From the NCBI GenBank assembly GCA_017515325.1, contig JAFWGA010000057.1, positions 62,001 through 126,000 on the forward strand: a stretch of 64,000 nt of DNA. Direction: 5' to 3'. Every line of letters begins with the position of its first letter. Position 1 is the first letter of the stretch. The stretch is from Blautia sp. (lineage in GTDB: Bacteria; Bacillota; Clostridia; Lachnospirales; Lachnospiraceae). The notes beneath the pieces are model-generated. The model saw only the letters and a list, made by a program, of their open reading frames with translations. It was not told where the DNA came from and ran no database searches. The position numbers and the translations under genes were made by a program. This document shows, in pieces, positions 18,530 to 56,227 of the stretch.

Positions 18530-18577
18530 AAAGCCTACCCCGATGGACAAGCAGGCTTGCCAGAGAGGGTAGGCTTT
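18530..18577 (-). terminator. Stem-loop after the biotin operon
   Basis: Perfect 11-bp arms AAAGCCTACCC (18530-18540) and GGGTAGGCTTT (18567-18577) enclose a second small hairpin (GCAAGC/GCTTG). The minus-strand RNA continues with TTTATTATGG. It lies about 55 bases after the oadA stop and just before the flavoprotein gene. Confidence 0.65.
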
Positions 18578-18632: not shown

Positions 18633-20165
18633 TTACACCGGATAAGAGCCGCTTTGCGTATCAGCCTTTGTCTCGTCAATACCGGTTCTCTGTGCCTGGC
18701 GATATTTGAAGAAATCCAGGGCAACCTGAGGGAAGAGCGCATAGGACAGAACATCCTCATCCTGCTCCTTGTAGGCGGCCATTTCAGATTCCAGCTTATC
18801 CAGCTCGTTCTCGATCAGATCTGCCGGCCTGCAGGTGATCGGAGTCATATCTCCGATACACTTCTTCTGCACCTCCGGATTAAAGGGCTTGACTGTAGCA
18901 CCATAATGGCCGCTGAGAATATCCTTTGTCTCCTTGGTAACCATCTTGTAGCGCTCACCCATCAGCACGTTAAAGACTGCCTGCGTTCCCACGATCTGGG
19001 ATGACGGAGTAACCAGAGGCGGCTCGCCCAGATCCTTACGGACACGCGGAACCTCTTCGAGAACCTCGTAGAACTTATCCTCAGCATGCTGTTCTTTGAG
19101 CTGTGAGGTGAGGTTGGAGAGCATGCCACCCGGAACCTGATACAGAAGGGTCTTGATGTTGACTCCCAGGTTCTTCGGATTGAGAAGACCCGAATCCAGA
19201 GCCTGATCTCTGATGGGGCGGAAATAATCTGCGATTTCCGCCAAAAGCTTCTGGTCAAAGCCCGTATCATAGGGCGTTCCCTTGAAGGTCTCGACCATAA
19301 CCTCCGTAGCCGGCTGGGATGTTCCCAGAGCAAAGGGAGACATGGCACAGTCAATAATATCGACACCAGCCTCTACCGCTTTCAGATAGGTCATGGAAGC
19401 AACACCTGAGGTGTAATGGGTATGCAGGTCAATAGGAATGCTGACTGTCTCCTTCAGGGCGCTTACCAGTTTCGTAGCCTCATAGGGAAGCAGAAGGCCT
19501 GCCATATCCTTAATACAGATGGAATTGGCGCCCATATCCTCGATCCTGCGGGCAATTCCTGTCCAGTATTCCAGCGTATAAGCGTCTCCCAGGGTATAGC
19601 TTAGCGCTACCTGGGCGTGAGCGTTTTCCTTGTTGGCCGCCTTAACTGCCGTTTCAAGGTTGCGGATATCGTTCAGGCAGTCAAAGATACGAATAATATC
19701 AATTCCGTTCGCGACAGATTTCTGAACAAAGTATTCCACTACATCGTCTGCGTAGGGTCTGTATCCGAGAATGTTCTGTCCTCTGAACAGCATCTGAAGC
19801 TTGGTGTTTTTGAAGCCGTCACGAAGCTTGCGCAGCCTCTCCCACGGATCTTCCTTGAGGAAACGTAATGAGGCGTCAAAGGTTGCGCCGCCCCAGCACT
19901 CCACGGCATGATAGCCGACCTTGTCCAGCTTATCCACGATGGGCAGCATCTGCTCGGTACTCATTCTGGTGGCGATCAGAGACTGGTGCGCATCACGCAG
20001 GATGGTTTCCATAATCTTAATGGGCTTTTTTTCTACGGCAGCTTTGGGGGCAGCGGCCTTGGGTGCTTTTTCCGCCTGAACCGGTGCCGGCTGAGCCTGT
20101 GGATTCTGACGCTGGCCGTTTCCGCTATTGGAGCCCTTTTTGATCTTATCATTTTTCTGTGCCAT
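18633..20165 (-). CDS. oadA: Oxaloacetate decarboxylase alpha / transcarboxylase 5S-type carboxyltransferase
   Basis: A 510-residue biotin-dependent carboxyltransferase acting on oxaloacetate/pyruvate. The TIM-barrel begins at about residue 51 (METILRDAHQS, with the metal-binding Asp), continues with IRIFDCLND, the carboxylated-Lys motif SICIKDMAGLL and the metal-binding HTHYTSG, and ends in the conserved C-terminal PYC_OADA region. It has no biotin domain of its own. Unusually, it carries about 48 N-terminal residues rich in Gln, Pro, Ala and Lys that look like a biotin-carrier linker. Start ATG 20165. It is the last gene of the operon that also encodes the carrier and the Na+ pump. Confidence 0.9.
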   Translation of the reverse strand: MAQKNDKIKKGSNSGNGQRQNPQAQPAPVQAEKAPKAAAPKAAVEKKPIKIMETILRDAHQSLIATRMSTEQMLPIVDKLDKVGYHAVECWGGATFDASLRFLKEDPWERLRKLRDGFKNTKLQMLFRGQNILGYRPYADDVVEYFVQKSVANGIDIIRIFDCLNDIRNLETAVKAANKENAHAQVALSYTLGDAYTLEYWTGIARRIEDMGANSICIKDMAGLLLPYEATKLVSALKETVSIPIDLHTHYTSGVASMTYLKAVEAGVDIIDCAMSPFALGTSQPATEVMVETFKGTPYDTGFDQKLLAEIADYFRPIRDQALDSGLLNPKNLGVNIKTLLYQVPGGMLSNLTSQLKEQHAEDKFYEVLEEVPRVRKDLGEPPLVTPSSQIVGTQAVFNVLMGERYKMVTKETKDILSGHYGATVKPFNPEVQKKCIGDMTPITCRPADLIENELDKLESEMAAYKEQDEDVLSYALFPQVALDFFKYRQAQRTGIDETKADTQSGSYPV

Positions 20166-20248
20166 TTTCTACTCCTCTTATATTGGAGGCATCAGATATT
20201 CGAAACAAATATCCGCCATGCCTCCGCATATACCTCTTGGCTAAAGAT

Positions 20249-20265
20249 TTCGACCTGTGCGGTCA
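20249..20265. repeat. Single arm of the TTCGACCTGTGCGGT repeat family
   Basis: The motif TTCGACCTGTGCGGTCA occurs between oadB and oadA without its matching second arm. The other copies are at 37395, 38740 and 48424. Confidence 0.6.
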
Positions 20266-20287
20266 TGTATTCCTTCTCAGCTGCAAT

Positions 20288-21436
20288 TTACACTCCATAG
20301 ATAGCCATGAAAGCACCCGCTGCTACAGCGGTACCGATAACGCCTGCGACATTCGGCCCCATGGCATGCATCAGAAGGAAATTCGTCGGATCCGCTTCCG
20401 CGCCAACCTTCTGGGCTACGCGGGCGGCCATAGGAACAGCGGATACACCTGCCGAACCGATCAGAGGATTGATCCTTCCCCCGGAGATCCGGCACATCAG
20501 TTTTCCGAGCATCACACCACCGAAGGTTCCGAAACAGAAGGCGGCGAGCCCCAGAACAACGATCTTCAGCGTATCCGCGTTCAGAAATGCCTCCGCGCTG
20601 GTAGAAGCACCTACAGAGGTTCCCAGCAGAATGACAACAATATACATCATGGCATTGGAGGCTGTCTCCGTCAGCTGCTTTACCACTCCGCATTCACGGA
20701 AGAGATTGCCCAGCATAAGCATACCAACCAATGGAGCGGTCGTCGGAAGAATCATACAGACGACAATCGTGATGACAATGGGGAAAAGGATCTTTTCCAG
20801 CTTTGTGATGGGCCTGAGCTGCTCCATCTTGATCTTTCTTTCTTCCTCAGTGGTAAATGCCTTCATGATCGGAGGCTGGATAATCGGAACCAGGGACATG
20901 TAGGAATAAGCCGCTACAGCGATCGGTCCCATGAGGGCGCTCTGACCCAGCTTTCCTGCCAGGAAAATGGAGGTCGGGCCATCGGCTCCTCCAATGATGG
21001 AGATGGCTGCTGCAGCCTTACCGTTAAAGCCCAGAAAGATGGCAAGGAAATAGGCAACATAGATACCCAGCTGAGCCGCTGCGCCAAGCAAAAAACTGAT
21101 GGGATTGGCAATCAGCGGACCGAAATCCGTCATGGCGCCGACCCCCATAAAGATCAGGGATGGCAGGATACTCCACTCATCCAGAATATAGAAATAGTGG
21201 AAGAGGCCGCCGACGCCCGTGGAGGATTCCGCCGGTTCCATCATAATGCCCGGGTAGATGTTTACCAGGAGCATGCCAAAGGCAATGGGAACCAGAAGGA
21301 GAGGCTCAAAGTCGTGGGCAATGGCCAGGTACAGGAAGATACATGCCACCAGGATCATCAGATAATTGCCCCAGGTCAGATTAAAAAAGGCGGTCTGATG
21401 AACCAGGTTTGACAAGGTATTTGCAATATAAGACAT
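20288..21436 (-). CDS. oadB: Na+-translocating decarboxylase beta subunit
   Basis: A 382-residue polytopic membrane protein of the OadB/MmdB/GcdB family. It couples decarboxylation of carboxybiotin to export of Na+. About nine or more hydrophobic segments are present. Family landmarks include GVGAMTDFGPLIANP, the Na+-site loop ISIIGGADGPTSIF (the conserved Asp), and the C-terminal GNAGVSAVPMAARV-like SAGVSAVPMAARVAQ and HAMGPNVAGVIG motifs. It is complete. It follows the biotin carrier gene by 20 bases. Confidence 0.95.
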   Translation of the reverse strand: MSYIANTLSNLVHQTAFFNLTWGNYLMILVACIFLYLAIAHDFEPLLLVPIAFGMLLVNIYPGIMMEPAESSTGVGGLFHYFYILDEWSILPSLIFMGVGAMTDFGPLIANPISFLLGAAAQLGIYVAYFLAIFLGFNGKAAAAISIIGGADGPTSIFLAGKLGQSALMGPIAVAAYSYMSLVPIIQPPIMKAFTTEEERKIKMEQLRPITKLEKILFPIVITIVVCMILPTTAPLVGMLMLGNLFRECGVVKQLTETASNAMMYIVVILLGTSVGASTSAEAFLNADTLKIVVLGLAAFCFGTFGGVMLGKLMCRISGGRINPLIGSAGVSAVPMAARVAQKVGAEADPTNFLLMHAMGPNVAGVIGTAVAAGAFMAIYGV

Positions 21437-21456
21437 CTGACTACCTCCTGAATCAG

Positions 21457-21828
21457 TTAGTTCATCGTTGCCAGGGTATCTCCGTTTTCTACGGATGCCC
21501 CAACCGCCACGTCAATGCTGGCGATCGTGCCATCCTGGGGAGCAACAACCGGAATCTCCATCTTCATGGACTCAATGATCACGATATTGTCGCCAGCCTT
21601 AACGGCCTGGCCGACAGAAGCGGCAAGAGACAGAACCTTGCCGGGAACGGAGGCGGTTACCTTCACAGAACCTGCCCCGGCAGAGGCCTTGGGGGCTGCT
21701 GCCTTGGGAGCGGCTTTAGGAGCTGCCTTGGGAGCAGCTTTGGGGGCTGCTTGAGGGGCTGCACCGGTATTCTCTTCTACAGTGACGTCATAAGCGGTTC
21801 CGTTTACAGTGATGGTATAGCTTTTCAT
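21457..21828 (-). CDS. Biotin/lipoyl carrier subunit of the Na+-pump decarboxylase
   Basis: A 123-residue biotin carrier (MmdC/GcdC-like). A short N-terminal segment (MKSYTITVNGTAYDVTVEE) is followed by a flexible linker of AAPK repeats (about 23-50). The biotinyl domain comes last, with ESMKMEIP; the biotin is expected on Lys 89. The linker lets the carrier move between the carboxyltransferase sites and the membrane pump. It is the only biotin carrier in the window and presumably serves both carboxyltransferases. Confidence 0.95.
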   Translation of the reverse strand: MKSYTITVNGTAYDVTVEENTGAAPQAAPKAAPKAAPKAAPKAAAPKASAGAGSVKVTASVPGKVLSLAASVGQAVKAGDNIVIIESMKMEIPVVAPQDGTIASIDVAVGASVENGDTLATMN

Positions 21829-21895
21829 GATAATCTATCCTCCCAATGTTTATTGTATTGCCTGCTTAAAACATGTCGCTGGCGCGGCATATAGT

Positions 21896-21920
21896 GATAC
21901 TACTGCAAAAAATGGTTCCC
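21896..21920. repeat. Short dispersed repeat, ATACTGCAAAAATGRTTCCC type, copy 1
   Basis: This 25-base stretch in the spacer between the biotin carrier and OadG genes closely matches 36701-36722 in the rpoZ-gmk spacer. Both lie between co-directional genes. Confidence 0.45.
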
Positions 21921-21936
21921 TTCTGCAGGTCTATCG

Positions 21937-22671
21937 TCACCTTCGTGCCACCTTCCTGATGGAGCGCACATAGAAACCGTCTGCAGAGGTTCCCTCCATG
22001 GCAGCGATTGCCGCTGAGATAACCGCAATCAGTTCGCCATCGTCGACCTCCACTTCTTCCTCCTGAACAGGAGTCGGATGGTGGGGTTCCGGCACTACCC
22101 TGACCTCTTCCCCTTCGTTCCTTGACACGAGGGAAGGGACAAATTTCAGCAATGAGATGACAAAGGACAGAAAAACCAGAACCAGAAAAACGGTACACAA
22201 TCCGATCAGGGTATTCATGGCTGCTCTGGCAAGGGTTACTCCCATCGGCAGCTTGACATCGATCGTTAAGGAAGCGGGCTCCAGTTTCCGGTCAAAAATA
22301 TAGACAAATTTCGCGGCAGCCTTCTCAAAGGTCTGGGGAACCGTTACGGTATATTTCCCGCTTTTATAGGCTACCGTGCTTTCCTCGTTCTCGGCATCTG
22401 CCACATAGGCCCCCAGCTCCTCAGCGGAGCCTTCCCAGGCTTCCACTGCCTGGAGGGTAAAATCATCTGTCGACTTTGAAAGCTCAGCCAGATCCTCCTG
22501 GGTCAGGTTTACAATCGTATTGGTCAGCCCGATCCCGGTTTTCAGTACCTTGTCCATGCTTTCGTCATCTGCTTCTGAGGCAGAAACGCAAAAGGCACCC
22601 AGGAAGGCCATCACGGTGACGCAAAGAAGGACAGCCAGAGTTCTCGAGGCGTTCCTAAAATAATCTTTCAT
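21937..22671 (-). CDS. OadG-family delta/gamma subunit with extracytoplasmic domain
   Basis: A 244-residue protein with a signal-like N-terminal segment (ASRTLAVLLCVTVMAFLGAF), an exported domain of about 110 residues, and a membrane helix (LIGLCTVFLVLVFLSFVISLL). A short cytoplasmic tail with the OadG-like VDDGELIAVISAAIAAMEG motif follows. OadG/MmdE-type subunits join the carboxyltransferase to the membrane pump. This long form with an external domain is seen in Clostridia. I use the ATG at 22671 with GAGGTG six bases upstream rather than the GTG at 22680. It is 14 bases from the carboxyltransferase gene. Confidence 0.85.
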   Translation of the reverse strand: MKDYFRNASRTLAVLLCVTVMAFLGAFCVSASEADDESMDKVLKTGIGLTNTIVNLTQEDLAELSKSTDDFTLQAVEAWEGSAEELGAYVADAENEESTVAYKSGKYTVTVPQTFEKAAAKFVYIFDRKLEPASLTIDVKLPMGVTLARAAMNTLIGLCTVFLVLVFLSFVISLLKFVPSLVSRNEGEEVRVVPEPHHPTPVQEEEVEVDDGELIAVISAAIAAMEGTSADGFYVRSIRKVARR

Positions 22672-22685
22672 ATGCTTCACCTCAC

Positions 22686-24122
22686 TTAAACAGTACCATG
22701 CTTTTTATCAGGTCTCACTTCTTTTTTCGCATAGAGGATATCGAAGGCAGTGATCACATATTTCCTGGTCTCTGCCGCAGCAATGACGGTATCAACATAG
22801 CCTCTTGCCGCCGCGCTCTCAACATTTGACTGCAGCCTGCGATAGGCATCGGCCTTCTCTGCCAGATCTGCCGCGCTGGCACCGGGGCTGAGAATCTTTG
22901 CTGCCAGGGAAGCATCCATCATGCCGATCTCAGCGTCTTCCCAGGCAAATACGAAATCAGCGCCCAGGCTCTTGGAATTCATAGCCGTGTAGGCGGAGCC
23001 GTATGCTTTTCCGGTGATGACATTGACCTTGGGAACACTCGCTTCGGCAAAAGCGGCAACCATGGAGCCCACCGAACGGGCGAGCATCTTCTCATTGCAG
23101 AGGCTGGCAGAAAACCCGGTTACATTGGTAAGGGTCAGTACAGGGATCCCAAAGGCATCGCAGAAGCGGACCAGGGAGGCGGCTTTTCTGGCGCCTCTGG
23201 AGCTGAGAGTCGTTCCCAGCTCTTCCGCCTTGTTTCCGTCTTCGCCATAAATGACGGAACGGTTTGCCACGGCTCCTACAGTAAGGCCATTCAGGCGGAT
23301 GAAGCCTGCCGCAATATCCTTGCCGTATTCCGGTTTGATCTCAAAAAACGCTTCATCATCTGCCAGAGCGCTGAGAAGCATGCCTGCATCCTGGGCATAG
23401 TCCCCGGCTCCTTCGAGGAGGCGGTTCAGGCTGTCGCTGCACTCAACGATGGTATCGTTGTCCCAGTTGCTCGAGGGAAGCAGGGTGACCAGGGTTCTGA
23501 TCTGATCGAGGATCTCTTCTTCGGTTCCGATCCCGTCAACCATGCCGGTCTCCTTGCTCTGGAATTCTGCAGAAGAGCTGTCACATTTTTCTGTCCGGTT
23601 TCCTTCCAGCGCATTGGGCGAATTGACGAAGATGTGACCCCTTTCCTTTTCTACGAAGGTGAAATCAGACAGCGCGGGAACGAGAGCCATTCCACCACCG
23701 CAGGTCCCAAAAACAGCGGTAATCTGAGGAATCACGCCGGATGCAAGGGTCTGCTTAAGATAGATTGCGCCGAAGGCTTCCAATGCATCTGTCGCCTCTT
23801 CCAGTCTCAGACCTGCACAGTCAACGAGCCCGATTACCGGTACGCCTGTCTTTATGGCAATGTCATACAGGGCTGTGATCTTCCTGGCATGCATCTCCCC
23901 CATTGAACCGCCCAGGACGGATGCATCCTGACTATAGACGTATACGGGTCTGTTATCGATAACGCCGTAGCCGGTCACGACTCCATCGGAAGCTGCTTTT
24001 TTCTCTGTTAGGTTGAAATCGGTGGATCTGGCTGTCACCTTTGCTCCGATCTCAACAAAACTATTGGCATCAAGCAGGGCTTCTATCCTGTTTGCTGCTT
24101 TGCTTTGTGTAGTGTTGCTCAT
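22686..24122 (-). CDS. Acyl-CoA carboxyltransferase (MmdA/PCC-beta type)
   Basis: A 478-residue two-lobed crotonase-fold carboxyltransferase, as in methylmalonyl-CoA decarboxylase alpha or the transcarboxylase 12S subunit. Features include GGSMGEMHARKI, the first oxyanion region GTCGGGMALVPAL, the linker, and the second-lobe VTGFSASLCNE and GKAYGSAYTAMNSKSLGADF motifs. The acyl-CoA substrate (methylmalonyl, malonyl or glutaconyl) cannot be fixed from sequence; at 478 residues it is a little short for MmdA. Start ATG 24122, nine bases after GGAGGG. It is the first gene of the operon. Confidence 0.85.
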   Translation of the reverse strand: MSNTTQSKAANRIEALLDANSFVEIGAKVTARSTDFNLTEKKAASDGVVTGYGVIDNRPVYVYSQDASVLGGSMGEMHARKITALYDIAIKTGVPVIGLVDCAGLRLEEATDALEAFGAIYLKQTLASGVIPQITAVFGTCGGGMALVPALSDFTFVEKERGHIFVNSPNALEGNRTEKCDSSSAEFQSKETGMVDGIGTEEEILDQIRTLVTLLPSSNWDNDTIVECSDSLNRLLEGAGDYAQDAGMLLSALADDEAFFEIKPEYGKDIAAGFIRLNGLTVGAVANRSVIYGEDGNKAEELGTTLSSRGARKAASLVRFCDAFGIPVLTLTNVTGFSASLCNEKMLARSVGSMVAAFAEASVPKVNVITGKAYGSAYTAMNSKSLGADFVFAWEDAEIGMMDASLAAKILSPGASAADLAEKADAYRRLQSNVESAAARGYVDTVIAAAETRKYVITAFDILYAKKEVRPDKKHGTV

Positions 24123-24156
24123 GCTGATTAACCCTCCATATTGTTGTAAGACTGCC

Positions 24157-24192
24157 TTTGGCTTCCGTCGCTGGGGGGCGTCGGAAGCCAAA
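24157..24192 (-). promoter_or_regulatory. Hairpin in the leader of the biotin operon
   Basis: TTTGGCTTCCG (24157-24167) and CGGAAGCCAAA (24182-24192) form a perfect 11-bp stem with a 14-base loop. It lies between the promoter and the ribosome site. No T-tract follows, so it may stabilise or regulate the message rather than end it. Confidence 0.6.
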
Positions 24193-24237
24193 AGCTGTCT
24201 CTGAATAATAAAACATAACCAAAACTAAGCCAATGTA

Positions 24238-24266
24238 ATTCTACTTCATAGGCTTCTTTTTTTCAA
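24238..24266 (-). promoter_or_regulatory. Promoter of the biotin carboxyltransferase/Na+-pump operon
   Basis: On the minus strand TTGAAA (24261-24266), 17 bases, TAGAAT (24238-24243). This gives a leader of about 110 bases that contains the 24157-24192 hairpin. Confidence 0.65.
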
Positions 24267-42292: not shown

Positions 42293-43585
42293 CTAGAGTG
42301 CCTCCCTCATCGCCTCAAGCGTCTCGTTCAATACTGTCGTCGTATGGGCTGTGCTCAAAAAGATCGCCTCAAACTGCGAAGGCGCCAGATAAAAGCCCTT
42401 TTCCAGCATTTTTCTGTAATAAACCGCAAAGCTTTCGGTATCTGACCGCTTTGCCGTCTCATAATCCTTTACCGGATGCTCGGTAAAGAAGAGACAGCCC
42501 AGCGAGGAAATCGAATTGACCTGATAAGGCAGACCCTTTTCCCTGACAATGGTACGGATCCCTTCAAAGAGCATGCTTCCTCTTTCCTCCAGTTCCTCAT
42601 AGACCCTGGAGTTGTTCTTTAAGATATGCAGCATCGCCAGGCCTGCTGCCATGGCGATGGGATTACCGCTCAGGGTTCCCGCCTGGTAAACCGATCCTAG
42701 CGGTGCGACACACTCCATGATATCGCGTCGGCCACCATAGGCTCCTACCGGCATGCCACCTCCGATGATCTTACCATAGGTCACCAGATCCGGCGTCACC
42801 GAGAAACGCTCGGCAGCCCCGCCAAAAGCCAGACGGAAGCCTGTGATCACCTCATCAAAAATCAGCATGGCCCCATGCTCCGTACAAAGCCTGCGAAGAC
42901 CCTGCAGGAAGCCCGGCTCCGGAAGAACCACACCCATGTTGGCCGCCACCGGCTCCACGATAACGGCAGCGATTTTATCCTCCTCGCCTTTCGCCTGGGC
43001 TTCACTTTCCTCAAAAAGTGCAGTCAGGCCCTGCAGATCATTATAGGCCGCGATCAAGGTATCCGCCACACATCCGGCGGGAACTCCGGCACTGTCGGAG
43101 ATGTGGGCTGTCATCACCCCGCTCCCGGCGCTGATGAGCATGGCATCCGTATGGCCATGATAGCAGCCGGAAAACTTCACCACCTTGTTGCGGCCGGTAA
43201 AGCCCCTCGCTGCCCTTATGGCACTCATAACCGCCTCCGTACCGGAATTGACCATCCGGATCATTTCCACATGGGGAATATTCTGGGTGATCAGCTCTGC
43301 CATCTGTACCTCCCGCTCTGTGGCACAGCCAAAGCTCAGGCCATCCTCGCAGGCGCGCAGGACAGCCTCCCTTACCTCCGGGAAATTATGTCCCAGGATC
43401 ATGGGTCCCCAGGAACCGATATAATCCACATAACGCTTTTTGTCCACATCATACAGGAAACAACCGTCGGCCCGTGAGATCATCCTGGGTGTCAATCTTA
43501 CGCTTCTGAAGGCGCGGACCGGACTGTTAACACCGCCAGGCATAACCCTTTTGGCACGCTCAAACAGCTCTTCAGATCTTCCCAT
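42293..43585 (-). CDS. hemL: Glutamate-1-semialdehyde 2,1-aminomutase
   Basis: A 430-residue PLP enzyme giving 5-aminolevulinate in the C5 pathway. It shows the substrate-binding PGGVNSPVRAF at the N-terminus, FDEVITGFRLAFGGAAE, the PLP lysine in TYGKIIGGGMPVGAYGG, and GSVYQAGTLSGNPIAMAAG. All are intact. The start at 43585 overlaps the hemB stop by one base (TGATG). It ends the cobalamin series; the HemA partner is not in the window. Confidence 0.97.
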   Translation of the reverse strand: MGRSEELFERAKRVMPGGVNSPVRAFRSVRLTPRMISRADGCFLYDVDKKRYVDYIGSWGPMILGHNFPEVREAVLRACEDGLSFGCATEREVQMAELITQNIPHVEMIRMVNSGTEAVMSAIRAARGFTGRNKVVKFSGCYHGHTDAMLISAGSGVMTAHISDSAGVPAGCVADTLIAAYNDLQGLTALFEESEAQAKGEEDKIAAVIVEPVAANMGVVLPEPGFLQGLRRLCTEHGAMLIFDEVITGFRLAFGGAAERFSVTPDLVTYGKIIGGGMPVGAYGGRRDIMECVAPLGSVYQAGTLSGNPIAMAAGLAMLHILKNNSRVYEELEERGSMLFEGIRTIVREKGLPYQVNSISSLGCLFFTEHPVKDYETAKRSDTESFAVYYRKMLEKGFYLAPSQFEAIFLSTAHTTTVLNETLEAMREAL

Positions 43586-44568
43586 CAGCCGATCCTCCCA
43601 TCATCCATCATAGCTGCCAGCTCCTTTGCCGCATAGGTAATATAGATCTGGGCTCCCGCACGGAAGGCCGCGACAGCCATTTCCCCGAAGATCCTTTCCT
43701 CATCGATCCAGCCCTTCATAGCCGCAGCCTTGACCATGGCATATTCCCCACTCACACTGTAGGTCGCAACGGGAATCGACACTGCATCGGTGATCTCTCT
43801 TACCAGATCGAGATAAGACATAGCAGGCTTAACCATCAGGATATCTGCCCCCTCCTCCAGGTCAAGCAATGCTTCCTTCATTCCCTCCCTGCGATTGTGG
43901 AAATCCATCTGATAGGTCTTTCTGTCTCCAAAGGCAGGGGCAGAATCCGCCGCCTCCCGAAAGGGACCGTAGAAAGCAGAGGCATATTTCACGGCATAGG
44001 ACATGATCGGTGTCTCGGTATGGCCGTTTTCATCAAGCAGTTCCCGGATCGCGGCAACCCTGCCGTCCATCATGTCTGAGGGAGCTACCATATCAGCTCC
44101 TGCCTCCACATGGGAAAGGGCTGTCTGGGCCAAAAGCCGGAGGGTCGCGTCATTTTCCACATCATGATCATGGAGAATTCCGCAGTGGCCATGGGAGGTA
44201 TACTCACACATACACACGTCCGTAATATAATACAGGTTCGGGAAACCCTTTTTTGCTTCCCGTAAAGCCTTTTGGACAATACCGTCCCTGGCATAGGCAC
44301 CGCTTCCCACCTCATCCTTTTCGGCGGGGATTCCGAAAAGAAGGACAGAATGAAGACCTGCGCGGCTTACCTCCTCCAGGGCATAAGGAAGCCGGTCCAG
44401 GCTGTATCTGTATTGTCCCGGCATAGAAGGAATCTCCTCCTTGATCCCACTTCCCTCTGCCACAAACATGGGATAAATCAGGGAGGACTTATCCATTCTC
44501 GTCTCCCGCACCATCCGGCGTAACGTTTCACTGCCGCGCAGACGGCGCGGACGATATACCATATCCAT
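43585..44568 (-). CDS. hemB: Delta-aminolevulinic acid dehydratase (porphobilinogen synthase)
   Basis: A 327-residue enzyme joining two 5-aminolevulinates. The zinc cysteines are in CMCEYTSHGHCGIL, the Schiff-base lysines in YAVKYASAFYGPFR and LMVKPAMSYLD. Complete. Start ATG 44568 with AGGAG seven bases upstream. Co-transcribed with hemL and the upstream precorrin-2 dehydrogenase. Confidence 0.97.
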   Translation of the reverse strand: MDMVYRPRRLRGSETLRRMVRETRMDKSSLIYPMFVAEGSGIKEEIPSMPGQYRYSLDRLPYALEEVSRAGLHSVLLFGIPAEKDEVGSGAYARDGIVQKALREAKKGFPNLYYITDVCMCEYTSHGHCGILHDHDVENDATLRLLAQTALSHVEAGADMVAPSDMMDGRVAAIRELLDENGHTETPIMSYAVKYASAFYGPFREAADSAPAFGDRKTYQMDFHNRREGMKEALLDLEEGADILMVKPAMSYLDLVREITDAVSIPVATYSVSGEYAMVKAAAMKGWIDEERIFGEMAVAAFRAGAQIYITYAAKELAAMMDDGRIG

Positions 44569-44621
44569 ATTGCGCTCCTTTACTGATCTGATCTTATCGG
44601 TACCGTACCCATACAGTAAGC

Positions 44622-45104
44622 CTAATCCTCTTCCATAGTCGAAGGAAGCTGTTCCATCATCTTCTGTATCGCTATGCGCAGAAGCTTCGCCCTCTTATGA
44701 TCCTCCCCGCTGGCCGTTACGCCGACCACCATGCTGTCCTGGATACAGATACCCGGAAAGTAGAAATCACATTCGTCCCGGTCGTTCACCACGTTGACAA
44801 AAATGCCCTCCTCCTTACAGATGTTATATATCGCATCGTTCAGTTTCCAGTCATTCGTCGCTGCAAGCACCATAAAGGCATTGGTCAGATCGGAGCGTTT
44901 CACCTGTCTGGGGGTTAACCGGATATGACCGGCCATCGAAAATACCTGCAGTTCATTGGAGATGACCGGGGCAATCACCGTGATATTTCGGGTAAAGGCA
45001 AGAAGGGATTTCACACGACGTGTGGCTATCGTTCCTCCCCCCACCACTACAATGTTCTTGTCTGAAAGATCTATGAACAAGGGAAAAAAACGTTTATCAC
45101 TCAT
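44622..45104 (-). CDS. Precorrin-2 dehydrogenase (SirC/CysG N-terminal type)
   Basis: A 160-residue NAD-dependent dehydrogenase that oxidises precorrin-2 to sirohydrochlorin. It has the signature VVVGGGTIATRRVKSLL, FVNVVNDRDECDFYFPG and a C-terminal VGVTASGEDHKRAKLLR. It lacks the uroporphyrinogen methyltransferase domain of CysG. It is half-way between the cob genes and hemB. Used to feed both siroheme and the cobalt-first corrin route. Confidence 0.92.
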   Translation of the reverse strand: MSDKRFFPLFIDLSDKNIVVVGGGTIATRRVKSLLAFTRNITVIAPVISNELQVFSMAGHIRLTPRQVKRSDLTNAFMVLAATNDWKLNDAIYNICKEEGIFVNVVNDRDECDFYFPGICIQDSMVVGVTASGEDHKRAKLLRIAIQKMMEQLPSTMEED

Positions 45105-45153
45105 ATGTTATTCTCACATCTCTACATCGACAGACGGCAGCGGCATTCATCCG

Positions 45154-45804
45154 TTAATCACCATAACCCCTGTCCTCGGAAAGCATATACAAGAGGGCAT
45201 TGACGATGCATGCCGCGATATTGCTACCGCCTTTTCTTCCTTTTGCGACAATATAGGGTGCCTGTGCCTGCATGATCAGTTCTTTGGACTGGACAACATT
45301 GACAAAGCCCACCGGAACCCCAATGATCAGCTCCGGCCTGATCCTGTTTTCCTTCATCAGGTCGTAAAGCCGGACCAAGGCGGTAGGGGCATTCCCAATG
45401 GCGAAGATCACAGGCCGGGACAATGCTGCCGCTTTGTCCATACAGGCAGCTGCCCTGGTACTTCCATTCTTTCTTGCCTGCTCGGCAACATCAGCATCTG
45501 ACATAAAGCAGGCAGCCTCCCCGCCATAGCGGGAAAGGATGGTCTTATTGATTCCTGCTCTGGCCATCTGGGTATCCGTCACAATGACCGCTCCCTTTTG
45601 GATGGCATCAAGGCCCTTTTCCACAGCATGATCCGAAAAACAAAGGTTCCTGGCATAGTCAAAGTCAGCGCTGGTATGGATACAGCGCTTCACAATCGCC
45701 TCAGTCCCTGGAATCAGGGGAAAATCCCCCAGTTCCTTCGTAATGATCTCAAAACTCCTGGCTTCTATCTCAAGAGGTTTTACCTTTTCCAATTCTATCG
45801 TCAT
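45154..45804 (-). CDS. cbiC: Precorrin-8X/cobalt-precorrin-8 methylmutase
   Basis: A 216-residue enzyme moving the C11 methyl to C12 to give cobyrinic acid. It shows the catalytic His in [14 protein letters not shown], a [17 protein letters not shown] segment and a C-terminal [18 protein letters not shown]. Start ATG 45804 overlaps cobQ stop (ATGA). Confidence 0.97.
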
Positions 45805-47321
45805 ATCCCCTCCTCCAGTATCCGGTAGATTGCCTTCAAGTCCAGGTTTTCCCGCAGGCCTGCCGCCAGGATGTCATACTGGGATTCCTTGAAGGCAGCA
45901 AAATCCACACCGGAAAAGCTGCCGATATCGATCCCCTTTTTTTCCGCAACCAGACGGATGAATCCCTCTGCTGCCTCCTGACGTTCAAACAGGCCGTGGA
46001 CATAGGTTCCCAGTACCTGGCCGGCACTGATCCCATCCTGCCTATTTTGCCCGCTTACCATATCCGTAAGTGAAAAAACAGGAGCCTGAGCCGCTGTGTT
46101 TCCTTCGGTCATGATACTCTCACCCATATGGATTTCGTAACCCTCTACAGGAATACCGGCAAGAGGGGCAAAAAATCCACCCATGGGACAGATCCTTCCC
46201 TCCACCCTGGTTCTGGTCTTAGACCGGGAAAATACCGTTTTCATCGGCAGAAGGCCAATCCCGTGCATGCTGCCGCCTTCCTCCACCCCATAGGGATCAG
46301 ACAGGCTCTCTCCCAGCATCTGAAACCCGCCGCAGACGCCTAAGATCATTGTCCCTTTATTCGCTTCCTTGCAGATCGCTGTCTCTAACCCACTCTGTCT
46401 GAGCCATTTCAGGTCTCCCATGGTGTTCTTTGTTCCCGGCAAAGCAATCAGATCCGGGTGCCCCAGCTCTCTGACGCTTCCCACATACCTTACCGTGACT
46501 CCGGGAATGCTTTCCAGGGGATTAAAATCAGTGAAATTTGAGATCCGCGGCGTGCGGATCACAGCCACATCGATCAGTCCTGTTTCCCCATGTGCCTCAA
46601 AACGGGTAGTCAGGCTATCTTCATCCTCCACCTGGATATCCAGGTAGGGCGCCACTCCCACGACAGGAATCCCACAAAGCTGTTCCAGCATCTTTACGCC
46701 CGGATCCAGGATAGTCTTATCTCCACGGAATTTGTTGACGATCAATCCTTTTACGATTTCCTTCTCCTCAGGCGGCAAGAGGGCAACAGTTCCGTAGAGC
46801 TGGGCAAAAACGCCTCCCCGGTCGATATCTCCTACCAGGAGAACCGGGGCATGAGCCATTTTCGCCATCCCCATATTCACAATATCCTCCGTCTTCAGAT
46901 TGATCTCGGCCGGGGAACCGGCTCCTTCCAGAACAATAATATCATATTCCTGGTCCAGTCTGTTATAGGCTTCCATGACAGCAGGAATCAGATTTTTTTT
47001 ATAGGCAAAGTATTCCCTTGCCGACATTGTCCCCAGAACCTCCCCATTGACAATGACCTGGGAACCGGTATCATTGGTGGGTTTTAGCAGGATCGGATTC
47101 ATCAGGACCGACGGCTGAATCCCGGCAGCCTCGGCCTGCATAACCTGGGCTCTGCCCATCTCCAGCCCTTCCTTCGTGATAAAGGAATTCAGCGCCATAT
47201 TCTGGGATTTAAACGGAGCCACCCGATAACCGTCCTGGGCAAAGATCCGGCAAAGACCAGCTGTCAAAAGACTCTTGCCGGCATTGGACATGGTTCCCTG
47301 GATCATGATCGACCTTGCCAT
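45801..47321 (-). CDS. cobQ: Cobyric acid synthase
   Basis: A 506-residue glutamine amidotransferase that amidates four side chains of adenosylcobyrinate a,c-diamide. The ATP-binding domain is at the N-terminus ([31 protein letters not shown]), and the C-terminal class I glutaminase has the nucleophile in [13 protein letters not shown] and a late HGLFE. Complete. Start ATG 47321 inside cobD's end (overlap 19 bases). Confidence 0.97.
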
Positions 47322-48400
47322 GCCTTATCCTCCTCCCCAAATACTGTTCGATGCATTGAAACAGCCATCACTTCGTCCAGAGCCTTCAGCAGGGAACTGT
47401 TCTCCTCGTGGGTTCTGACCGCAATACGGAAAAATCCTGATCCGAGTCCTTCATAATTCCCGCAGTCCCGGATCAGGAATCCCTTTTGCACCATGTCCTG
47501 AAACAGGGAAGCAGGTCCTTTAAAGAGGATATAATTCGCATCCGTAGGATAGACGACAAAGCCAAGCCTGGATAGTCCTTCCATCAGGAAGGGCTTCTCC
47601 TCAAACACCAGCTTCCGTCCCTTTTCCAGAAACTCCCTTTCCCTTAAGGCTGCCCTCCCGGCCTCCTGGGCAATCACAGAGACATTCCAGGGTTGAGTAA
47701 CCCGGCTCATGGCTGCAAGCAGCTCCTGATCTGAACTCAGGCCGTAGCCGAGCCTCAGCCCGGCCATGCCATAGCCCTTGGTAAAAGCCTTGAATAGGAA
47801 AAGTCTTTTTTGATCCGCCAGCAGCTTTTTCAGAGTATGGGAGGCCGGATCCTCGACAAAATCCAGGAAGCACTCATCCACCGCCAAAAAAATACCCTTT
47901 TCCCCACAGATTGAGGCAATCCTTGCCAAAAGACCGCCCTCGATCAGCCTGCCATCCGGATTATTGGGATTACAAAGAAAAACAATGTCCGGCTTTGGCT
48001 CCAGCCTTTCCAGAAAGCCTTCATCCAGCCTGAATTCCTTCTCCTCCTTCAGGAAATAGTAAGCCAGTTCACAGCCGACACTCTCGAGTGCCGCCCCATA
48101 CTCCGCAAAGCTAGGAGCAGTCAGAAGGGCCTTCTTAGGCTTCAGGGCCAATACCAGAGAGAAGATCAGCTCAGCAGCCCCATTCCCGCAGATCACCCAG
48201 GAATCCGGCACTTCCTCTGCCCTGGCGATATCACGCCTTAACCTGGAGCAGTTAACCTCAGGATAATTCTTTACGGAAGGAATGCTGTCTATGATGGCAT
48301 CCTTAACCCCCTTAGGCGTACCCAGAGGATTACAGCTGGCGGAAAAGTCAATGCATGTATCGTAGCGGTAGATATCTCCTCCATGAACATGTCCAGCCAT
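47303..48400 (-). CDS. cobD: Threonine-phosphate decarboxylase CobD
   Basis: A 365-residue PLP enzyme giving aminopropanol phosphate for the nucleotide loop. It starts with [12 protein letters not shown] and shows [25 protein letters not shown], the PLP lysine in [18 protein letters not shown], and a C-terminal [12 protein letters not shown]. Histidinol-phosphate aminotransferases are similar, but the N-terminus and position in a cob operon support CobD. Start ATG 48400 after GGAGGAGAAAAT; the frame to 48415 starts at a TTG. Confidence 0.92.
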
Positions 48401-48423
48401 ATTTTCTCCTCCCAAATATCGTT

Positions 48424-48450
48424 TTCGACCTGTGCGGTGCGCAGGTCGAA
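48424..48450. repeat. Palindromic TTCGACCTGTGCGGT-family copy
   Basis: TTCGACCTGTGC and GCGCAGGTCGAA (one mismatch, G-U in RNA) with a GGT loop, between the cbiB stop and cobD start. Confidence 0.7.
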
Positions 48451-48454
48451 CGTT

Positions 48455-50077
48455 TTAATGGATCAGCACATACAATAAAGTAAACACCAGCAAGGCAAGG
48501 AAGGCTGTGACAAAAAGCAAACGGTTTGCCAGCGGTATATCGTTTTTGCTGATATTGCGCAAAGGATCCCCAATGGTCGGCTTCTCGTACAGCTCACCGA
48601 AGTAATAGGCGTTTCCTGCCAGCTGAATGCCCAGAGCACCGGCCATAGCTGCCTCAGACTGGGCAGAATTTGGGCTGGCGTGTTTATATCTGTCCCGACG
48701 GAAAATCTTCCATGCATTCTTCCCGTCAAAGCCGGATATCAAAGCTGCCAGTACCATGAGAAGGCCGGTAAGACGGGAGGGCAGGAAATTGGCCGCATCA
48801 TCCACTTTGGCGGCACAGCGTCCATAATACAGATATTTCTCGTTCTTGTAGCCCAGCATGGAATCCATGGTATTGATTCCTTTATATAGGAACATCAGCG
48901 GAATGCCACCGATCGCCATGAAAAACATGGGCGCAACCACTCCGTCCGCCGCATTTTCCGCGATTGTTTCCACGGTGGCCTTGATCACACCCTCCTCATC
49001 CAGGCGCTCCGTATCCCTGCCGACTATCATGGAAACGGCCTTCCGGGCATGCCGCAGGGAACCGCTCTTTAAGAAGCGGTAAACTCTCATGCTTTCCGAG
49101 GAAAGAGACTTTGTCGCAATCAGCTGATAGCACCAGAAAACCTCAAGCGCCAATCCGGCCCATACATTAAGCTGATACAAAAACCTGAGAAGGAAAAAGG
49201 GCAGACATAAGCATACCGCACAGACAAGAATCACCTCAAGGATTCCTCCTGCCAACTCGCGGCGGTGGAAGCTTTCCAGGAATCTCTCGTCCTCCGGTTT
49301 CTTCTCCTTTCGCTTCGGCCGGACAGGGTCAGGCTTGTTTTCCTCTTCCTCCGACTGAGATCCGGCAGAAGACTGATTCTTCCGGCCATTCCTCTCCGCC
49401 TTGCTCCGAGGCTGGCGTCCGAGGCTGAAAGAGCCTTTTCCCGGCAAGGAAGGTATTTTCGATGCTTCCTCCATGGACAGATCCGGCTCTTCCTCCCCTT
49501 CCTCGTCCTCCACGGGCGAGACAAGAAAAGCGCCCGCCCAGCGGGAGGATTTTTTTCCGCTCTTTTTACTGTCCTTTACCTCACCCAGGACGTCATCGAT
49601 CTCGATTCTTCCGATCTCGATGGGTTCATCATCCTCATCATCCCAGAACAAGGCCTGCCGGGGATCAGAAGCTGCCTTTGCCTTCTTCATCCCCGCTTCT
49701 GCTGCCCCCTCCTGGGCAGCCTCCTTTGCCGGGGCAGCCTTTGAACTGTCAAAGACCCTGTCGGCCATCACCGCTTCTTGCTCTGCCGGCGGGTCTGACT
49801 GCCATCGCATCCCCAAGAGCTCTTCTGTGGCAGGGCTTTTTTCCTCAACGTCATTTTCCCTGTCCTTTGTTGCTTCAGCCTCCGAAACCTGCTTTTTTGA
49901 AGCAGAACCCGCTTTATCTTTATCGGGTATCAGAACCCAAAACAGGCGGCGGAGAATGCTCTCAAGGACCTGGATCAGCTTTCCGATCAAAACGACAGGA
50001 TGAGGCAGCCACTTGGGATCTCCTAACAGCATATCAAGAGCAAAGCCCACAGGCAAAACCAGAAATCGCCAAATCAT
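48455..50077 (-). CDS. cbiB: Adenosylcobinamide-phosphate synthase CbiB with large charged insert
   Basis: A 540-residue CbiB, about 220 longer than usual. The enzyme joins aminopropanol phosphate to adenosylcobyric acid in the membrane. The first 50 residues (FALDMLLGDPKWLPHPVVLIGKLI) and the part from about 270 on (ELAGGILEVIL..., KATVETIAENAADGVVAPMF, MLGYKNEKYLYYGRCAAKVDDAANFLP, PNSAQSEAAMAGALGIQLAG) are normal CbiB with several membrane helices. Residues about 51-268 are inserted: low-complexity, highly charged, with DE-, SK- and EE-rich runs and no recognisable domain. The frame is uninterrupted. Start ATG 50077, nine bases after GGAGGG. Confidence 0.92.
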   Translation of the reverse strand: MIWRFLVLPVGFALDMLLGDPKWLPHPVVLIGKLIQVLESILRRLFWVLIPDKDKAGSASKKQVSEAEATKDRENDVEEKSPATEELLGMRWQSDPPAEQEAVMADRVFDSSKAAPAKEAAQEGAAEAGMKKAKAASDPRQALFWDDEDDEPIEIGRIEIDDVLGEVKDSKKSGKKSSRWAGAFLVSPVEDEEGEEEPDLSMEEASKIPSLPGKGSFSLGRQPRSKAERNGRKNQSSAGSQSEEEENKPDPVRPKRKEKKPEDERFLESFHRRELAGGILEVILVCAVCLCLPFFLLRFLYQLNVWAGLALEVFWCYQLIATKSLSSESMRVYRFLKSGSLRHARKAVSMIVGRDTERLDEEGVIKATVETIAENAADGVVAPMFFMAIGGIPLMFLYKGINTMDSMLGYKNEKYLYYGRCAAKVDDAANFLPSRLTGLLMVLAALISGFDGKNAWKIFRRDRYKHASPNSAQSEAAMAGALGIQLAGNAYYFGELYEKPTIGDPLRNISKNDIPLANRLLFVTAFLALLVFTLLYVLIH

Positions 50078-50080
50078 GAT

Positions 50081-51499
50081 CTATTTCCCTCCTTTCGCAT
50101 ATTCTCCACATGCACGCAAAAATGCCCGGGGTACCTGCGGATTCGCGTAATAATACAGGTGTGGAAAACCTGCCAGCATCGTTTCCGAGGCATGCATGCA
50201 ATCCCAGCTTCTCTCTGACAGTGGTTTGCAGGCAGTAAAACTACTCCCACAATTGGTGGAATCAAAATAATGGAATTCATGGGCTCGTATCTCTCCCCAT
50301 GCATTCTCCGAAAAGGCAGGCACTTTTTGCTGCAAGGTAATATACCCGAACCGGGACAAACGAGGTGTCCGAAATACCTTTCCTTCGATCACCCCGGCCA
50401 TGGGATAGAATATGCCGTCCATCCCCTCCATCTCCTGGTGCAGGTACATAAAGCCTCCACACTCTGCCAGACAAGGCATTCCCCCTCTCAGAGCCTGTCT
50501 GATGGCAGAACGCATCCCTTCATTTTCCGCCAGACTCGCTGCATGCAGCTCCGGATATCCCCCGTATAACAAGAGACCGTCCAGGTTTTCCGGCAGGCTG
50601 TTGTCGTGGATGGGACTGAAGGAGACAAGCTCCGCCCCCATCTGTCGAAGGAGAGACAGATTATCCTCGTAAAAAAAGCAGAAGGCCTCATCCTCTGCCA
50701 GACCGATCCGCAAGGGACCATCCTGGGAAAAAGGCTTTTGAGAAAACTCTGCCCTATCTGGGGTTACCCTAAGCGGAGGGGTATCGGAGGCCATCCTGAG
50801 GATACCGTCCAGATCCAAGGTCTTTTCCAGGATCCGGGCAAAATCCTCCAGTCTCTTCTGCAGCCGGGGAATCTCACCCGGTAGCACCAGGCCCAGATGC
50901 CGGCTTTCCAGGACCGCGTCATCTGTCTGAGGCACGTAGCCTAAGACCTTTACCTGCGTCTCCTCTTCGATTGTTGTCCTGAAGCGGTCATAAAGGGAGG
51001 GCGAAAGGCGATTGAGGATCACGCCCCTGATCCGGCTGTCTGGCCTGAAGGTGGAAAAACCCTTGATCAGGGCAGCCAGGGAAAGGCTCATTCCTCTGGC
51101 ATTCACGATCAGAATCGACGGGGTATCCGTCACTCTGGCAAGATCATAGGCACTTGCCTTCGGTGAGATGCCCCCCAGACCGTCATAATACCCCATAACA
51201 CCTTCCATCACAGCAATGTCACAGCCGGAAAGGTTCTTTGCCAACAGATAGCGGGTCGTGTCAGGATCTGTAAAAAAGGTATCCAGATTTCTGGATTTCG
51301 TCCCCAGCACCTGGCTGTGAAACATAGGATCAATGTAATCCGGCCCGCATTTAAAGGAGGCCGGTGAAAGCCCTCTAAAGAGCAAGGCCTGCAGAAGCCC
51401 GCTTGTGATAAGGGTCTTGCCTGTTCCGCTGGATCCTGCCGTTATCAGAATCCGAGGGAGCTCGATCGTTTTTTCTTCTTCGGTCCTTGATGTTTGCAT
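50081..51499 (-). CDS. cbiA: Cobyrinate a,c-diamide synthase
   Basis: A 472-residue ATP-dependent amidotransferase that makes the a,c-diamide, with glutamine as donor. Walker A is ITAGSSGTGKTLITSGLL, CGPDYIDPMFH is the substrate segment, EGVMGYYDGLGG follows, and the class I glutaminase nucleophile is in PCLAECGGFMYLH. Complete. Start ATG 51499. It abuts cbiB by 3 bases. Confidence 0.96.
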   Translation of the reverse strand: MQTSRTEEEKTIELPRILITAGSSGTGKTLITSGLLQALLFRGLSPASFKCGPDYIDPMFHSQVLGTKSRNLDTFFTDPDTTRYLLAKNLSGCDIAVMEGVMGYYDGLGGISPKASAYDLARVTDTPSILIVNARGMSLSLAALIKGFSTFRPDSRIRGVILNRLSPSLYDRFRTTIEEETQVKVLGYVPQTDDAVLESRHLGLVLPGEIPRLQKRLEDFARILEKTLDLDGILRMASDTPPLRVTPDRAEFSQKPFSQDGPLRIGLAEDEAFCFFYEDNLSLLRQMGAELVSFSPIHDNSLPENLDGLLLYGGYPELHAASLAENEGMRSAIRQALRGGMPCLAECGGFMYLHQEMEGMDGIFYPMAGVIEGKVFRTPRLSRFGYITLQQKVPAFSENAWGEIRAHEFHYFDSTNCGSSFTACKPLSERSWDCMHASETMLAGFPHLYYYANPQVPRAFLRACGEYAKGGK

Positions 51500-51539
51500 T
51501 CCTTATTCTCCAGACAACAGATGACATGTCAGTAACTGC

Positions 51540-51558
51540 TCCGTCAGCACCTCGCACT
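51540..51558. repeat. TCCGTCARCACCTCGCACT repeat, copy 2 (see 40280)
   Basis: Shared 19-base segment with the 40280-40298 sequence, in the cbiA-cbiJET spacer; GTAACTG flanks it on both sides. Confidence 0.55.
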
Positions 51559-51620
51559 CCGCTACATGCTGCGTCTTTCCCGTAACTGTGAAGGAATACA
51601 GGACTGAACCGTTACACAGG

Positions 51621-55387: not shown

Positions 55388-55390
55388 ATG

Positions 55391-56155: not shown

Positions 56156-56185
56156 ATGCGGTTTGCCCCCCTTTTCCAATAGAGT

Positions 56186-56227
56186 CTCGTTTTCGTAACT
56201 ACCGGACGCAAAGTGCCGGGCAGTTAC
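56186..56227. repeat. GTAACTG-type palindromic repeat between cbiD and cbiF
   Basis: GTAACT (56195-56200) and AGTTAC (56222-56227) with an inner CCGG stem; CTCGTTTTC flanks on both sides. It includes the cbiD stop codon. Confidence 0.5.

Follow-up and report, generated by a model that had tools for sequence, protein, structure and literature searches.

A conserved Lachnospiraceae operon linking two carboxyltransferases, one biotin carrier and a predicted Na+ pump

Why would a predicted Na+-pumping oxaloacetate decarboxylase (OAD) be encoded together with a second carboxyltransferase (CT) of the acyl-CoA type? The question is raised by five genes in a 64,000-nucleotide stretch of a Blautia sp. 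genome (contig JAFWGA010000057.1, positions 62,001 to 126,000; hereafter the window). They lie head to tail on the minus strand, from 24122 to 18633, in the order CT12S, OadG, BCCP (the biotin carrier), OadB (the predicted pump) and OadA (the oxaloacetate/pyruvate CT). Judged by its sequence, the operon is a variant of Na+-pumping OAD with an added, divergent acyl-CoA-type CT. Our reading, held with moderate confidence, is that it would encode a Na+-coupled oxaloacetate/pyruvate complex in which CT12S serves as an extra acyl-CoA port, for malonyl- or acetyl-CoA rather than methylmalonyl-CoA, on a shared BCCP.

What we infer from the parts, their order and conservation, their separate losses and the lack of any mutase found is a single membrane complex at the phosphoenolpyruvate (PEP)-pyruvate-oxaloacetate node. 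OadA would shuttle the carboxyl group between oxaloacetate/pyruvate and the biotin of the single BCCP, OadB would exchange it with CO2, coupled to Na+ movement, and OadG would anchor the parts at the membrane. CT12S, a divergent relative of the 12S subunit of clostridial two-CT operons, would give this BCCP a third port, most likely for acetyl-/malonyl-CoA. The complex may run towards decarboxylation and Na+ export after PEP carboxykinase (PEPCK), or in reverse, making oxaloacetate.

Conservation of the five genes

Family scans recovered all five genes on the minus strand where the original prediction had placed them. CT12S matches PF01039 (1.5e-102) and reaches 386.4 bits with TIGR01117 (mmdA), far below the cut-off of 998.8; among solved structures, propionyl-CoA carboxylase beta subunits come closest (1vrg, 336.6 bits). 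The earlier label "12S/MmdA type" claims too much, CT12S belonging to a divergent subfamily. OadA matches PF02436 (1.4e-56) and PRK12331 (751 bits, cut-off 718) and is nearest to the solved chains 5ks8 (pyruvate carboxylase subunit), 2nx9 (oxaloacetate decarboxylase) and 1rqb (5S). OadB matches PF03977 (6.3e-151) and, above its cut-off, TIGR01109, with 6iva as the nearest solved chain. BCCP matches PF00364 (4.2e-16) and contains ESMKM, whose lysine we take to carry the biotin. OadG scores 64.8 bits with PF04277 (cut-off 27) and 30.7 bits with TIGR01195, below its 36.05.

A survey of other genomes bore out the five-gene order. Among the relatives (the best 80 of 246 from a CT12S scan of public genome contigs, from Blautia and other Lachnospiraceae), 72 of 80 carry the complete set on a single strand in unchanged order. 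The remaining 8 run up to a contig edge (0-173 bases away), and L084 among these also gave no OadG match (L numbers denote loci and G numbers genomes). We then consider a family sample of 90 genomes, one per genus, all at least 90% complete except the own genome of the window (87.7%). OadB was matched in 82 of them (81 above cut-off), PF01039 in 88 and PF02436 in 84. Linkage of CT, OadB and OadA (same strand, within 6 kb) holds in 70/90 genera, with the order CT-OadB-OadA in 70/70, and an OadA- or CT12S-type operon, whole or partial, is present in 82/90. No module was found in eight genomes (G055, G069, G080, G097, G109, G112, G115, G126), the module is cut or ambiguous at contig ends in another eight (G062, G067, G071, G073, G078, G084, G090, G120), and four depart truly from the linked triad (G065, G070, G082, G092). 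The same order in 72/80 relatives and in all 70 linked genera is far beyond chance, and the combination of two CTs with a pump is common to many genomes beyond this Blautia. An HI0933-type flavoprotein adjoins OadA in only 35/64 eligible loci and scpB lies upstream in only 9/68, so that neither qualifies as a sixth member of the operon.

The genes are closely spaced, with median intergenic gaps of 13.5, 21, 33 and 48 bases (78, 76, 77 and 72 relatives; starts script-chosen). The CT start, previously put at 24266, is most likely the ATG at 24122, preceded by GGAGGG about 10 bases upstream, rather than 24266 or the TTG at 24191; position 24266 coincides with a promoter-like match. Terminator-like matches are not commoner than in shuffles (4 vs 6.2). 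At the gathering threshold, Rfam returned one tRNA and nothing else in the whole window. Coordinates are collected in Table 1.

Table 1. Operon genes and candidate signals, in window positions
Feature	Position	Strand	Basis
CT12S: divergent acyl-CoA-type carboxyltransferase (12S/MmdA/PccB family), 478 aa, ATG start	22686..24122	-	family scans
OadG: membrane subunit with extra N-terminal part, 244 aa	21937..22671	-	family scans
BCCP: biotin carrier, 123 aa, Ala/Pro linker, ESMKM	21457..21828	-	family scans
Codon of the ESMKM lysine, expected biotin attachment	21562..21564	-	motif
OadB: carboxybiotin decarboxylase / Na+ pump (predicted), 382 aa, Na+-site residues kept, StOadB Arg304 = Gln	20288..21436	-	family scans and residue comparison
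OadA/5S: oxaloacetate/pyruvate carboxyltransferase without biotin domain, 510 aa	18633..20165	-	family scans
Sigma-70-like promoter match TTGAAA-17-TAGAAT, 10/12, 5' of CT12S	24238..24266	-	consensus match only
Terminator-like hairpin 3' of OadA	18533..18552	-	consensus match only

An oxaloacetate decarboxylase with a divergent partner

The OAD part of the operon retains its expected residues. In OadA, LRDxHQS and (I/V)KDMAG are kept in 69/69 proteins and HxH in 61/69 by strict pattern; we take these motifs to supply the catalytic metal and lysine. The equivalents of StOadB E40, D203, Y229, N311, N373, G377, S382 and N412 are kept in 74/74 CT12S-linked OadB proteins, and the Na+-binding Asp203, Ser382 and Asn412 correspond to D152, S332 and N362 here. 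Two positions differ in all 74: Arg304 is Gln (residue 254 here) and Ser419 is Thr. Arg occupies position 304 in the OadB of L124, L127, L129, L130, L133, L136, L142, L086, L092, L099 and L100, and His in that of G120; Thr replaces Ser419 in L129 and L133 as well. In Salmonella OAD, a passage of PMC7274780 reports for R304A a moderate drop in activity and a tripled Na+ requirement for the half-maximal rate. Loss of pumping through the Arg304 to Gln change is not supported, given the moderate effect of alanine in the published work and the retention of the Na+ residues. Several Lachnospiraceae also have a lone OadB class (L101, L102, L103, L106, L148), 45-48% identical, with no CT, BCCP or OadA matches in the stretches examined. 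Since this class departs at position 304 too (Thr/Ser in L101-L103 and L106), Arg304 does not define a Na+-pumping OAD.

Passages on known Na+-pumping OADs describe a common OadA, OadB, carrier and small membrane subunit (OadA-OadB-OadD-OadH in Enterococcus faecalis; OadA-OadB-OadG in Klebsiella, Salmonella and Vibrio; PMC6193673, PMC7274780). The operon likewise keeps the Na+-site residues of OadB, but differs from them in the added 12S-type CT, the two OadB substitutions and an N-terminal extension of OadG. This extra part has about 140 residues and looks by eye like a signal sequence followed by an outside domain of about 120 residues; the short OadG of L086, L087 and L090 is without it. 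OadG also evolves fast (dN/dS 0.21).

CT12S is, as far as its sequence tells, a family-restricted, divergent subfamily of 12S-type CTs. In a class-wide sample of 196 genomes, identity to CT12S of at least 55% was limited to family members, and full-length matches outside the family reached about 45%. Of 20 out-of-family CT loci examined, 17 group with canonical MmdA, the exceptions being L135, L140 and L141. We compared 90 CT12S proteins with 25 canonical MmdA over the 170 columns in which at least 95% of the latter share one residue, leaving out the three exceptions; CT12S agrees in 82 columns, is fixed to another residue in 14 (the initiator methionine among them), is free in 68 and has a gap in 6. 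The median dN/dS of CT12S is 0.085 (429 pairs), a mark of purifying selection that rules out a decaying pseudogene; the values for OadB, OadA, BCCP and OadG are 0.051, 0.051, 0.091 and 0.213. Median dN is 0.115 for CT12S, against 0.048 for OadB and 0.057 for OadA. Together with the column and motif comparison, these rates indicate a maintained protein that changes faster than OadA and OadB and is altered in its C-terminal half. All 79 CT12S proteins retain GG in the first oxyanion motif, so the N-domain resembles that of an acyl-CoA CT.

Several features weigh against an active CT12S of canonical descent. The second glycine of KAYGGAY, which we take to belong to the second, biotin-side oxyanion hole, is replaced by S, T or N (45, 23 and 11 of 79). 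The role assumed for it draws in part on a passage about Gly421 of methylcrotonyl-CoA carboxylase (PMC5991677). The QEHGGIIRHGAKL motif is lost, with fixed E and A of its own in 79/79. With both changes, CT12S might do no carboxyl transfer at all. In addition, CT12S is not seen to arise within canonical MmdA in the CT tree (17/90 CT12S rows used), and the CT12S of G092, one of the genomes whose operon lacks OadB, is among the more diverged copies (branch 0.54).

It is thus conceivable, though rather unlikely, that CT12S is no longer an enzyme and that its 12S-like body scaffolds BCCP and OadA beside OadB in an otherwise ordinary Na+-pumping OAD. The loss of canonical C-domain motifs, the faster evolution of CT12S and the presence of AccC in most relatives tested (see below) would suit such a role, as would G082 (L087), which keeps OadG-BCCP-OadB-OadA and the adjoining flavoprotein with no CT12S and no PF01039 match anywhere in its genome. 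Against it, the most conserved CT12S columns cover motifs that presumably line the pocket, as in relatives, and they hold clade-specific states: GEMHA(K/R)KI is present in 79/79, and AEIxxMG has become xxIGMMD, with D for G in 78/79. Moreover, G092 (L090) and G065 (L144) carry CT12S-OadG-BCCP-OadA on unbroken contigs from which OadB has been lost; their other OadB genes belong to different lines (46% identical in G092, 57% and 45% in G065). CT12S kept without OadB argues against a scaffold, because the biotin would then have no second partner.

The separate losses in G082, G092 and G065 indicate that OadA and BCCP form the core, while some genera do without CT12S and others without OadB; they fit CT12S and OadB as alternative partners of one biotin. 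The fourth departure, G070, carries a set of another lineage that includes no CT. Two genomes were not counted as losses: G090, whose contig begins at OadB and whose genome has no CT12S match, and G120, where the carrier is cut by the contig end and the only MmdA-type match is a separate one. A carrier shared by the two CTs is accordingly a plausible idea on sequence grounds.

Acyl-CoA substrate and relatives outside the family

The original prediction proposed methylmalonyl-CoA:pyruvate transcarboxylation coupled to a Na+ gradient. Two CTs, one carrier and a Na+ pump stand as a conserved operon; methylmalonyl-CoA as the acyl-CoA is not supported. Methylmalonyl-CoA mutase (PF01642) was found in 0/90 family genomes, the 87.7% complete own genome included, with a control search positive in 8/14. 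In the class-wide sample it occurs in 24/196 genomes, in 23 of these 24 within 5 kb of a same-strand MmdA-type gene. No OadA was found at the two mutase-linked MmdA loci examined, L142 and L139 (the latter ends at a contig edge). Conversely, none of the 18 out-of-family OadA-linked CT loci (L124-L138, L140, L141, L143) comes from a mutase-bearing genome, a contrast that is not significant alone (0/18 vs 24/178, Fisher p 0.14). The missing mutase and its adjacency to MmdA elsewhere disfavour a methylmalonyl-CoA role, and a place for the operon in propionate (methylmalonyl) metabolism is improbable.

Propionibacterium transcarboxylase (12S/5S/1.3S) uses methylmalonyl-CoA and also places two CTs on one carrier, but has no pump subunit. 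The joint presence of 12S-, 5S- and 1.3S-like parts in one operon is what speaks for the same reaction here. We nevertheless consider it highly improbable: no mutase was found (other methylmalonyl-CoA sources were not searched for), mutase-linked MmdA genes are differently arranged, and CT12S is not MmdA and is without several MmdA/12S motifs. Relative to the Propionibacterium type, the operon has no canonical 12S and includes OadB. Passages in PMC2996986 and PMC7764203 predict Propionibacterium-like operons in Geobacter bemidjiensis and strain BL-4. The methylmalonyl-CoA (MmdABCD) and glutaconyl-CoA decarboxylase Na+ pumps share CT, OadG-like, BCCP and OadB homologues with the operon, but have canonical MmdA or GcdA and no OadA in the loci examined (L142, L092, L099, L100); here, MmdA scores below the cut-off, no mutase neighbours the operon and OadA is present.

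A closer kinship is found with two-CT operons of other Clostridia. In the OadA tree, from which L110 and L111 (pyruvate carboxylase, PYC) were left out, the OadA sequences of the CT12S operons are a single clade (100/100) nested in a larger group (100/100) that takes in 16 of 18 other-operon OadA; the other two, L143 and a second copy from the own genome (L085), group with L086. By this tree, OadA of the CT12S operons belongs with the two-CT operons of other Clostridia. Descent of CT12S from the canonical line is argued by OadA and not by the CT tree, which does not show it, and this counts against our reading. Outside the family, MmdA(-OadG)-BCCP-OadB-OadA with canonical MmdA occurs in L124, L127, L129, L130, L133 and L136 (OadG undetected in L127 and L136). 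Eleven further sets are without OadB (L125, L126, L128, L131, L132, L134, L137, L138, L140, L141, L143), in some of which the carrier or OadG was undetected and in L140 and L141 of which the CT is diverged. L142 has MmdA-BCCP-OadB without OadA. L135 (G214), also outside the family, holds a CT12S-like five-gene set with OadB (76%, Gln) and OadA of the same line; its CT is long-branched and C-terminally short, and G214 has PYC with no AccC found. It looks like a degenerating or transferred copy.

Passages on two such operons connect them with malonyl-CoA. In C. thermocellum, Clo1313_1523-1526, given as a locus range only, is a putative malonyl-CoA transcarboxylase operon; the organism is described as having no standard acetyl-CoA carboxylase, a model assigns malonyl-CoA to the putative transcarboxylase, and OAD activity is given as undetected in the wild type (PMC5414155). 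In C. bescii, B5X54_RS07175-07190 has the same order of 12S-type CT (annotated methylmalonyl-CoA carboxyltransferase), small protein, BCCP and OadA, and deletion of FapR raises the fab genes together with this MmdA-hypothetical-BCCP-OadA operon (PMC7071700). Both operons have four genes (12S-type CT, small protein, BCCP and OadA) and no OadB; the operon here combines the clostridial two-CT order and OadA line with an inserted OadB. Strain BL-4 has 12S/5S/1.3S-like genes with no mutase identified, as stated in a passage of PMC7764203. The malonyl-CoA reading of pump-less operons has thus already been proposed in print, whereas searches of open-licence literature turned up no account of a five-gene set that includes OadB.

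Of the 18 OadA-linked out-of-family genomes, one has AccC (G282), two others have PYC (G283, G214), and in 15 no biotin carboxylase was found, PYC included; the best biotin carboxylase model match in those 15 is weak (E 1e-20 or worse) and carbamoyl-phosphate synthase-like. These genomes, taken with the C. thermocellum, C. bescii and BL-4 papers, point to malonyl-CoA as the probable earlier task of the acyl-CoA arm. By contrast, of 50 family genomes tested, chosen by hand and not at random, 42 have AccC (36 above the curated cut-off, 6 at 509-606 bits), including 15/18 tested within the genus, the own genome not among them; with genomes not randomly drawn, the Fisher value is 3.7e-9. AccC in 42/50 leaves no obvious need for malonyl-CoA from the operon in the family, and this weighs against our choice of substrate.

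A loose palindrome, TTATnACCnGGTnATAA, lies 60-140 bases 5' of MmdA in L125, L132, L134 and L137 and might be a FapR-type box. A scan of 26 MmdA loci with a FapR-like box motif gave best upstream P values of 0.015 (L132), 0.045 (L137) and 0.075 (L134), none surviving correction, and matches upstream of 76 CT12S were at chance level.

The own genome has two PF01039 and two PF00364 matches, from the Na+-pump operon and from a set on contig C6 (about 24.3-27.8 kb; L085:12099-15645). The C6 set is MmdA (618 bits)-BCCP (EAMKM)-OadA without a pump, among glycosyltransferase-like, ACP-like and thiolase-like genes (named by eye). With G179, a genome without AccC, it shares 82% identity in MmdA and OadA and 50% in BCCP. 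In the own genome, which is 87.7% complete, the scans gave no AccC and nothing AccDA-like, and the C6 operon is possibly its malonyl-CoA source. The single biotin carrier predicted originally is therefore true of the operon but not of the genome. A second carrier might have served OadA, and one does exist, but beside an OadA and an MmdA of its own. That CT12S uses another carrier and just neighbours an ordinary OadA/OadB/BCCP/OadG pump is very unlikely: the C6 carrier sits in its own MmdA-BCCP-OadA operon, and relatives keep CT12S without canonical MmdA, since full-length MmdA occurs in 1/41 genomes of the genus, the own one (G022 has a split, unclassified match).

Elsewhere in the window, a gene run at 42293-57417 resembles heme/cobalamin biosynthesis (by eye), in a genome where no mutase was found. 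Within it, a CbiB/CobD-like protein (by eye; 48455-50077) has a long charged low-complexity insert of about 200 residues near its start, and 51621-53603 looks by eye like a fusion of two heme/cobalamin-type enzymes.

Direction of the pump and place in metabolism

Oxaloacetate could reach the operon from PEPCK (PF01293), matched in 84/90 family genomes (22 weakly, perhaps another PEPCK type), whereas PEP carboxylase (PEPC) occurs in 1/90 and PYC in 7/90 (split in G055, elsewhere one frame of about 1150 aa). PYC is found in 3/70 genomes with the linked triad against 4/20 without (p 0.041), and absence of OadA is associated with PYC (p 0.0024). PYC or PEPC is present in 5/8 module-less against 3/82 module-bearing genomes (p 6.5e-5), with G062 and G073, cut by contig ends, counted as module-bearing. 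This contrast speaks for our reading, though it is post hoc, ignores kinship and is weaker in plainer groupings.

PYC or PEPC mainly where the module is absent would suit reverse running, in which the Na+ gradient loads CO2 on biotin for ATP-free double carboxylation of pyruvate and an acyl-CoA. Neither AccC nor PYC was found in 6/6 out-of-family genomes with the canonical MmdA and OadB operon (G246, G157, G186, G243, G160, G198; G186 and G160 are one genus). A 1984 report by Dimroth and Hilpert, cited in PMC7274780, names reversal of both pumps in its title. A review passage gives -34.4 kJ/mol (PMC8100219), against about 29 kJ for two Na+ at 150 mV by our own arithmetic, so that reversal may come within reach at low oxaloacetate. 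However, the same passage terms decarboxylation by these enzymes irreversible, characterised OAD pumps decarboxylate, and the PEPCK common in the family can make oxaloacetate. In addition, a passage on the chicken caecum ranks a Blautia PEPCK, called orphan, as the 11th most expressed protein (PMC11204068), which would suit downstream decarboxylation. We regard reversal as unlikely. Also doubtful, as a bolder history, is a Na+-powered, ATP-free double carboxylase that would make oxaloacetate and malonyl-CoA in Clostridia without biotin carboxylase, its acyl-CoA arm being re-tasked in Lachnospiraceae once acetyl-CoA carboxylase was present. If true, OadB would run backwards and one biotin would serve two unrelated CT folds, as anaplerotic enzyme and acetyl-CoA carboxylase at once.

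Returning to the Na+-coupled complex with an extra acyl-CoA port, the operon looks near-universal in the central metabolism of the Lachnospiraceae, major gut bacteria. It offers a partner for the Blautia PEPCK called orphan in PMC11204068: PEPCK followed by the pump would yield ATP and Na+ export, and the reverse direction would make oxaloacetate. Because CT12S matches the MmdA model below its cut-off, it could be misread as a propionate-pathway marker in genomes where no mutase is found. The canonical out-of-family versions pose a further question, whether malonyl-CoA and oxaloacetate may be made there without an ATP-dependent biotin carboxylase, paid for by the Na+ gradient.

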